DNA of 48,906 bases from Hydrogenobacter sp. (lineage in GTDB: Bacteria; Aquificota; Aquificia; Aquificales; Aquificaceae): positions 1-48,906 of the forward strand of contig JAGDVY010000021.1 of the NCBI GenBank assembly GCA_023255875.1, in the 5' to 3' direction. Within the stretch, counting starts at the first letter, position 1. Every line of letters starts with the position of its first letter. The translations under genes were made by a program, and so were the position numbers. This document shows positions 14,818-15,968 of the stretch, in pieces. Below the pieces are notes generated by a model. That model saw nothing but the letters and a program-made list of their open reading frames with translations. It did no database searches and was not told where the DNA came from.

Positions 14818-15249
14818 TTACTTGATCTCTATCTTTTTCTCCTTTGAAACCTCAGCTTTGGGAAGTCTTATTTCCAAGACACCGTCTTTGAACTCAGCTT
14901 TCACTTCGTCAGTGTTCACCTCTGTTGGTAAGCTCAGCACCCTTTCAAACTTTCCATAAACCCTTTCTACTCTGTGAATGGTTTCCGTCTTCTCTTCACG
15001 CTCTTCCTTTTTCTCACCTCTTATGTATAGCATGTTATCCTTTATGCTTACTTCAATGTTTTCCTTCTTTACACCAGGAAGCTCCACTTTAACCACTATT
15101 TCTTTGTCCGTTTCGTACATCTCAACTGCAGGAGCAAAAGCTCTTTCCATGTCTTCTCCGGGAGAGAGCTCTTCAAGAAGTCTGTCAAACTCCCTTCTTA
15201 TTCTTTCAAGTTCTGCAAAAGGATTCCAGAGCATTAGTCCCCTTCTCAT
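14818..15249 (-). CDS. Small heat-shock protein Hsp20 (alpha-crystallin family)
   Basis: ATP-independent holdase chaperone. It is 143 residues from ATG 15249, with a GAGGTGAG Shine-Dalgarno about 6 nt upstream; a GTG at 15258 is the alternative. It contains WNPFAELERIRREFDRL, the alpha-crystallin domain (VKVELPGVKKENIEVSI, KFERVLSLP, VKAEFKDGVLEIRLPK) and a short C-terminal tail. Its roughly 100-nt leader carries a striking interleaved repeat structure, and a consensus-like promoter overlaps the end of pncA. Confidence 0.95.
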   Translation of the reverse strand: MRRGLMLWNPFAELERIRREFDRLLEELSPGEDMERAFAPAVEMYETDKEIVVKVELPGVKKENIEVSIKDNMLYIRGEKKEEREEKTETIHRVERVYGKFERVLSLPTEVNTDEVKAEFKDGVLEIRLPKAEVSKEKKIEIK

Positions 15250-15266
15250 GGCCCTCACCTCACTAT

Positions 15267-15288
15267 CTAAGCACCTGCAGGTGCTTAG
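15267..15288 (-). repeat. Perfect 22-bp palindrome in the hsp20 leader
   Basis: An 11-bp half site CTAAGCACCTG is followed directly by its exact reverse complement, with no spacer, 6 nt upstream of the hsp20 Shine-Dalgarno. The half resembles the outer part of the CIRCE operator (TTAGCACTC) but lacks its 9-nt spacer. It could be a repressor site or a hairpin that masks the ribosome-binding site. Confidence 0.7.
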
Positions 15289-15353
15289 GCTGGGGTATTT
15301 CTATACCGCCTTTTATAGCTGTCCCTTCCCCAGCAGGCGGTTTTGGGACAGCT
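15289..15353 (-). ncRNA. Candidate structured leader RNA of hsp20 (three interleaved complementary pairs)
   Basis: Read on the minus strand, three segments AGCTGTCCC, ACCGCC and GCTGGGG are followed in the same order by their exact complements GGGACAGCT, GGCGGT and CCCCAGC. Plus-strand positions are 15345-15353/15317-15325, 15336-15341/15305-15310 and 15328-15334/15289-15295. All three pairs cross one another, so the RNA can form a pseudoknot or exclusive alternative folds. The predicted transcription start lies at the first segment. No known riboswitch or thermometer class is recognised. Confidence 0.5.
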
Positions 15354-15357
15354 TACA

Positions 15358-15386
15358 TTTATAAAATTTATGTAAAAACTTTACAA
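15358..15386 (-). promoter_or_regulatory. Sigma-70-like promoter of hsp20
   Basis: Minus-strand TTGTAA (15386-15381) and TATAAA (15363-15358) are separated by 17 nt. The -35 box overlaps the pncA stop codon. Transcription should begin about 15352, giving a leader of about 100 nt. Confidence 0.55.
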
Positions 15387-15968
15387 CGTCAAGTCTCCAA
15401 AGGTTATCGCTACTGCACCTGAGTTCAGCATCTCCTCTATGGCTCTATCTGTATCCCCTACATTTACATCTACACCTTTTGTGGCATCAATAAGTAAGAA
15501 AACTTCGTAACCTAAGTTAAGACCACCTATTACCGTATTCTTTACACAGTAATCAGTAGCAACACCTCCCACAAAAATCCTTCTTATGCCTCTCTCTTTT
15601 AACAAACTGTCCAACAGAGTTCCCTGAAAACCAGAATAAGCATCAAAATCCTTACTTGTTCCTTTAGATATGATGAATTTGTTGTCCTTTGGTATTATCA
15701 GATCCTTGTGGAACTTAGCACCTTCTGTTTCCTGAACGCAGTGAGGTGGCCATATCCCACCGTATCCCTTAAAGGATATGTGATCTGGCGGATGCCAATC
15801 TCTGGTAAAGTATACGGGAAGGGATCTTGATGAAAAGGCTTCTATGTATGCATTTAGCTGTGGTACTATCTTATCCGCATCTGGTACAGGCAAGGCTCCC
15901 CAAGGCATAAAGTCATTTTGCATATCTACCACTATTAGCGCATCTTTGTTTGTTAGCCTTAGCCTCAC
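15381..15968 (-). CDS. pncA: Nicotinamidase
   Basis: Hydrolyses nicotinamide to nicotinate in NAD salvage. The 195-residue isochorismatase-like protein has the catalytic triad Asp15 (VDMQNDF), Lys102 (ISKGTSKDF) and Cys141 (ATDYCVK), and the metal site Asp57, His59 and His63 in DWHPPDH. It starts at GTG 15968 behind GGAGG. The following gene hsp20 has its own promoter inside the pncA 3' end. Confidence 0.92.
   Translation of the reverse strand: MRLRLTNKDALIVVDMQNDFMPWGALPVPDADKIVPQLNAYIEAFSSRSLPVYFTRDWHPPDHISFKGYGGIWPPHCVQETEGAKFHKDLIIPKDNKFIISKGTSKDFDAYSGFQGTLLDSLLKERGIRRIFVGGVATDYCVKNTVIGGLNLGYEVFLLIDATKGVDVNVGDTDRAIEEMLNSGAVAITFGDLTL

Follow-up and report, generated by a model that had tools for sequence, protein, structure and literature searches.

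TnpB is familiar as a nuclease and, in the form of TldR, as an exapted repressor. In IS200/IS605 elements of the ISDra2 type, the apical loop of a stem-loop in the omegaRNA, or reRNA, pairs with a downstream sequence (PMC10097598). IS607 TnpB, for example that of ISFba1, works with an reRNA derived from RAGATH-18 and has AGGAG or GAGGG as its TAM (PMC11061315), and therefore a target motif similar to a Shine-Dalgarno (SD) sequence has a precedent.

How does the leader of hsp20 in Hydrogenobacter compare with these systems? It lies in a window of 48.9 kb, which is the whole stretch of DNA that was analysed. As in the omegaRNA of ISDra2 (PMC10097598), its core is found in the right end of tnpB elements, where it adjoins the 3′ end of tnpB or overlaps it, and the right end stops at the element boundary; pairing between a loop and a downstream sequence is also found in both. 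The ISDra2 RNA, however, has one short pseudoknot by the guide, whereas here two helices, B and A, join loop and downstream sequence in an ABCABC order, and the RNA is found without tnpB as the 5′ leader of host genes. The SD-like TAM of ISFba1 (PMC11061315) is comparable with the GGAGG at which the present element is inserted, but the ISFba1 reRNA is longer, of an Rfam type and outside the coding sequence, while here RAGATH-18 was found neither in an Rfam search of the hsp20 leader at E ≤ 5, which gave chance matches only, nor in a gathering-score search of eight other loci, which gave tRNAs only. In the case of TldR (PMC13418256), parts of a TnpB system are likewise used by a host or phage for gene control, but the protein is kept and acts in trans; here it is the RNA half alone that seems to be retained, in cis, and no protein was detected in several genomes. 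In the open-licence literature we came across no description of TnpB elements aimed at SD sites or of TnpB-RNA leaders, which is weak evidence of novelty. The explanation that we favour, with moderate confidence in its origin, selection and mode of action taken together, is that the leader derives from a TnpB element inserted at an SD sequence, whose right end has been kept as a structured, cis-acting 5′ leader.

Structure and constraint of the hsp20 leader

The earlier note on this DNA had described three perfectly complementary pairs of 9, 6 and 7 bp in the order C B A C′ B′ A′, spanning 65 nt and followed by a 22-nt palindrome and the SD sequence. All of these are found on the minus strand where it had placed them (Table 1), and from the promoter to the ATG the leader runs through C B A C′ B′ A′, then the palindrome and then the SD. 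A GTG start at 15258 in the list of open reading frames is superfluous for hsp20. The spacing from the CCGCC core to A′ is 10 nt and is constant throughout the family. A nested fold of the leader (z = −2.2) contains C-C′ together with the hairpin of the palindrome. The −35 box is also present in relatives that lack the insert, as TTGACA. A box resembling TATAAA stops about 4 nt short of helix C, and with the TTGACG box it makes a predicted transcription start at the beginning of helix C plausible.

Table 1. Parts of the hsp20 locus, with positions in the window
Feature	Position	Strand	Remark
hsp20 coding sequence	14818..15249	(-)	143 aa; PF00011 match, 90.4 bits
hsp20 start codon ATG	15249-15247	(-)	
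Shine-Dalgarno GAGGTGA	15255..15261	(-)	spans junction of element and original flank
GAGG, end of inserted right end, now SD core	15258..15261	(-)	from empty-site comparison
Palindrome CTAAGCACCTGCAGGTGCTTAG	15267..15288	(-)	22 nt, 9-bp stem around TGCA
Helix A 3′ strand (A′) CCCCAGC	15289..15295	(-)	
Linker ATAGAAATA, B′ to A′	15296..15304	(-)	unpaired, conserved
Helix B 3′ strand (B′) GGCGGT	15305..15310	(-)	
Helix C 3′ strand (C′) GGGACAGCT	15317..15325	(-)	
Helix A 5′ strand GCTGGGG	15328..15334	(-)	7 bp with A′
Helix B 5′ strand ACCGCC	15336..15341	(-)	6 bp with B′; family core CCGCC
Helix C 5′ strand AGCTGTCCC	15345..15353	(-)	9 bp with C′
C-B-A-C′-B′-A′ core	15353-15289	(-)	span 65 nt
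−35 box TTGACG of hsp20 promoter	15387..15392	(-)	consensus match only; overlaps 3′ end of pncA

The pncA gene (nicotinamidase; 15381-15968 of the window) is directly upstream of hsp20 in several genera (L011, L012, L021, L025, L029, L030), and the hsp20 promoter overlaps the 3′ end of pncA in these genera as it does in the window. Throughout the family (L007-L031), hsp20 promoters have a conserved stretch resembling TTGACAnTTTGATAATnnnnGACTAAAwT, which exceeds plain −35 and −10 boxes and is possibly the site of a regulator.

The hsp20 gene was found in 54 of 61 genomes, and the full leader is present in all five of the Hydrogenobacter genomes. In other genera the hsp20 leader is different and mostly short, ending in AAGGAGGTG in most of the family. 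An ancestral, family-wide hsp20 leader is thus rejected, since no genus besides Hydrogenobacter in this set has the element at this gene. Across the five Hydrogenobacter species, 58 of the 64 sites of the core are invariant, against 24% of third codon positions, and the mean pairwise difference is 0.066 in the core, 0.315 between the −35 box and helix C, and 0.406 for third codon positions of hsp20. An alignment of hsp20 leaders had been proposed in the earlier note as a check on the pairs, and none of the five leaders breaks the three helices, which supports its idea of an RNA structure with crossing helices in pseudoknot order. Helix C retains an 8-bp core in all five, and the palindrome varies in sequence among the orthologues while its stem is maintained through paired changes. 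Helices B and A show no covariation of their own at hsp20 because they are invariant within these leaders. An operator of the HrcA/CIRCE type, suggested by the palindrome, is rejected, as the sequence of the palindrome is not conserved.

Covariation among dispersed copies

The element at hsp20 is dispersed, and it corresponds to the right end of elements of TnpB type that insert at SD sequences; both points had been overlooked in the earlier note. In a DNA search of the five Hydrogenobacter genomes, the core recurs at other loci, with other hairpins after it: before acpP in all five genomes, and in single instances before such genes as rplQ, cmr4, one for a helicase and one for an aldo-keto reductase. 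When the core was searched for with a sequence model, 81 of the 112 genomes of the order had matches, and exact core patterns are also found in Thermodesulfobacteria and in thermophilic Firmicutes. These copies are important for judging the structure. The order of helices had been considered very unlikely to arise by chance. Perfect ordered pairs of at least 8, 6 and 7 bp match only once in the window (both strands), at 15353; looser patterns of 6/5/5 have 9 and 10 matches on the two strands and about 7 per shuffled strand. Because such looser patterns are common by chance, the order alone is weak evidence, and the proof is carried by conservation and by covariation at other copies.

In 28 aligned cores, 99.7% of the cells of helices B and A are paired and six pairs have double changes, a level reached in none of 500 shuffles, although the shuffle test ignores relatedness of the copies. 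Five of the seven pairs of helix A have double changes in this set, and helix B covaries between CCGCC/GGCGG and GCGCC/GGCGC. Scanning with the pattern B(5)-1-A(7)...B′(5)-10-A′(7) gave 129 matches, two or three of them probably spurious, with 106 different C helices and many variants of A. Since B, A and C all vary with pairing kept across these matches, each helix is selected as a pair. At an orthologous site before htpX in 13 genomes, six of the eight pairs of helix C have double changes while B and A are fixed; one row of this alignment was moved by one base beforehand, and its shuffle control keeps the make-up of columns, not relatedness. The RNA of the element would fold as a pseudoknot in the cell, and its three helices may form together or one after another. 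A perfect palindrome and inverted pairs near a promoter could also be half-sites of a repressor on DNA, as the earlier note had suggested. This is hardly credible for three reasons: the palindrome and helix C diverge in sequence and yet stay paired, 22 of the scanned copies have a U.G-type pair in helix A, and copies are always in the sense orientation to the downstream gene.

The right end of a TnpB-type element at Shine-Dalgarno sites

Two intact tnpB-like genes in one genome (G004) have the core at their 3′ end, where it overlaps their last codons. Their protein matches TIGR01765 and TIGR01766 (TnpB-related), and the solved structures nearest to it are Cas12f-like, with weak E-values. No full zinc-ribbon match was found in this protein clade, and as PF07282 (the zinc ribbon) misses it, the absence of TnpB was checked again by searching with this protein and with TIGR01766. 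The ends of the element are defined by intact copies and by copies with internal deletions: GGAGG is followed directly by nTAAAAACAGTTGA on the left, and the core, the hairpin and a terminal TAACCAGG make up the right. By sequence comparison the 22-nt palindrome of hsp20 is the terminal hairpin of this right end, which reads CCAAAGTG..CACTTTGG in tnpB copies, and the terminus that corresponds to GAGG at hsp20 reads ACCAGG there. The core of the right end is probably an omega/reRNA scaffold. In a second tnpB subfamily (L131, L132, L133), with about 50% identity, the right end is of another kind, ..GTGACCTGG, and lacks the core. Phage origin of the element is rejected, with no match among 50,697 phage records.

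The GGAGG motif is present in 8 of 9 identifiable left flanks, and also in L083. At the insertion point it is the SD sequence of the downstream gene, and the end of the element, ..ACCAGG, supplies a new one; the start codon is mostly within about 10 nt past the right-end boundary. Empty sites agree with this. Between rpsD and rpoA, four sister species have just TAAGGAGGA...ATG, and the filled site in one species (G012) has TGACGGAGG, the element, and then TGAATCTTT-ATG. At hsp20 the empty site in other genera is AAGGAGG followed directly by TGATAGCC-ATG, and the filled one is GTGAGG followed by TGAGGGCC-ATG; the left end of the element itself is lost from the hsp20 copy. Several features of a TnpB-element right end are found, namely a match adjacent to tnpB, a boundary just after the terminal hairpin, a target motif on the left flank and empty sites. 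The origin of the hsp20 leader from a TnpB element, together with selection on its structure, is in our opinion very probable. A transposon that aims at SD sites and brings its own replacement would be able to enter essential genes at little harm.

Copies without tnpB, in Aquificales and other thermophiles, are directly before hsp20, acpP, htpX, hfq, infC, rho, rpoA, grpE and ribosomal-protein genes, where names of target genes were assigned by eye and several genomes are drafts. The species with the filled rpoA site has 35 copies, and all 30 that were examined sit directly before start codons; they precede hfq (twice), rpsU, rpsT, rplY, rpmF, rpsR, rpsK, infC, rho, rpoA, ftsH, ndk, glyA, ilvC and others. 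Genus g11 has the copy before htpX in 13 genomes, and targets in other genera are hfq, rplU, rplI, grpE, mreB, rpsT, rpmF, rpmH, rpoA, ftsZ, hpf and rho. Ten gene families (hfq, infC, rho, rpoA, rpsT, rpmF, GYD, grpE, mreB and hpf) each occur as targets in two genera. The overlap with the gene list of the 35-copy species amounts to 7, where 0.96 would be expected from 1500 genes; it loses significance (P = 0.36) if suitable targets number only about 250; as its significance hinges on the size of this set, target bias and benefit are both possible.

These shared families, the richness of the targets in ribosomal proteins, RNA-binding proteins and chaperones, and the strong constraint on the hsp20 core might be understood in the opposite direction, that is, a true class of cis-regulatory RNA (a riboswitch that senses a metabolite, or a leader to which a host protein binds) would belong to genes for growth and stress, and the right end of the transposon would have been taken from this class. 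We consider this unlikely. Solo copies retain traces of the transposon end TAACCAGG at its boundary (e.g. L292, L300, L305) and lie at GGAGG insertion points, and sister species in the genus of the 35-copy species have no copies at all. A riboswitch as such is conceivable: the core is conserved, but the downstream genes are unrelated, with no common pathway or ligand logic, no expression platform is visible and Rfam has no match.

Persistence of the leaders and their possible role

No TnpB was detected with TIGR01766 in the window genome (G000) or in G033, G076, G080 and G081, which are listed as about 99% complete, and leaders persist in all five; the htpX copy is also retained with no TnpB detected. 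The window genome has only fragments of tnpB and exactly two copies of the core, at hsp20 and acpP. Recent loss of TnpB is possible, because several genomes are drafts and this one retains such fragments. Could the leaders then be unselected or selfish relics, old insertions that have not decayed or that TnpB keeps in trans by cutting empty alleles? In that case the gene overlap would reflect a preference for perfect GGAGG sites, which fits the insertions at GGAGG and the insignificant overlap with about 250 targets. This is improbable, in view of the hsp20 core, which has changed far less than either the flanking DNA or third codon positions, the compensatory changes at htpX, and the TnpB-negative genomes. 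Another possibility is that the hsp20 leader is processed to an omegaRNA that guides TnpB or a TldR-like protein elsewhere. The match of the core to right ends of tnpB elements is in its favour, and so is TldR as a precedent of exapted TnpB regulators (PMC13418256). However, the guide-equivalent TGAGGGCCATGAGAAG of the hsp20 copy matches only hsp20 in five genomes with up to one mismatch, and with no TnpB detected and two core copies in the window genome, a role as trans guide is extremely unlikely there. A role of the leader RNA in cis would be the simplest reading.

Probably, insertion took place immediately 3′ of the GGAGG in the hsp20 SD, in the last ancestor shared by the five Hydrogenobacter species; the left part of the element with tnpB was lost subsequently. 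The end of the element would have taken over as SD (..CCAGG, later GAGG), and because of this replacement hsp20 remained translatable. The leader RNA may then have been maintained without TnpB by selection on its structure. Helix C would close the 5′ end of the mRNA and the SD would be exposed just 3′ of the hairpin, and such a closed 5′ end with a free SD may stabilise or boost abundant messages at high temperature. A paired 5′ end of an mRNA slows 5′-end-dependent decay, and 5′-terminal stem-loops stabilise bacterial mRNAs, for example at the ompA leader. The mode proposed here is similar to that of ompA-type stem-loops in having a paired 5′ end before an open SD, and differs in the mobile origin, the three crossing helices and the conserved core sequence. 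Solo copies are enriched in TATAAT-like boxes at 3-9 nt upstream of where pairing in helix C begins, with 26 boxes compared with 3 in shifted windows; the boxes were counted at 24 of 121 solo copies, a set that may include a few tnpB tails. From such boxes the 5′ end of the mRNA would be paired. Closure of the 5′ end cannot be the sole role, because copies of the rpoA type are internal to operons and away from the 5′ end of the mRNA. Stabilisation of the 5′ end or support of translation is accordingly proposed only tentatively as the mode in cis, the effect of the leader on expression being inferred.

An RNA thermometer or a switch between alternative folds that hides the SD of hsp20 at low temperature, as the earlier note had considered, is very unlikely. 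Indeed hsp20, htpX and grpE are heat-shock genes and crossing helices could compete, but most genes downstream of copies are not heat-shock genes, and the SD lies outside the element, with a probability of being unpaired that changes only modestly, nested models without pseudoknots giving 0.30-0.55 at 37 °C and 0.57-0.73 at 85 °C. Returning to the captured right end, we are evenly balanced on a wider statement, that guide-RNA scaffolds of an SD-targeting TnpB element were captured repeatedly as leaders in several thermophile lineages and selected without TnpB, which would make them a new class of cis-acting mRNA element; this statement includes that the mRNAs are abundant housekeeping and stress messages and that partly the same genes were captured independently in different genera. 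As the leaders are short, numerous and present in cultured strains, effects on mRNA stability and translation are directly testable at 70-85 °C, and the ABCABC order of three helices is a clean target for structural biology.

The only other copy of the window genome (G000:C41:3727-3786, plus strand) is before acpP-fabF (L075, L180); it has TATAAT 6 nt before helix C and is conserved in the five Hydrogenobacter genomes. In genus g10 (L221, L222, L223), a copy with the A helix GCTGAGG/CCTCAGC precedes one gene in three genomes. Two records of Thermodesulfobacteria (L253, L270) have a copy before the same gene, apparently ribH (lumazine synthase), as read by eye from L253. Firmicutes of the Tepidanaerobacter/Thermosediminibacter type (L255, L267, L273, L277) have a copy without tnpB before one shared gene in three or more related records, with the protein starting MGIVGCYLMPHPPIMVPEVG, and this copy is a candidate for another conserved capture.
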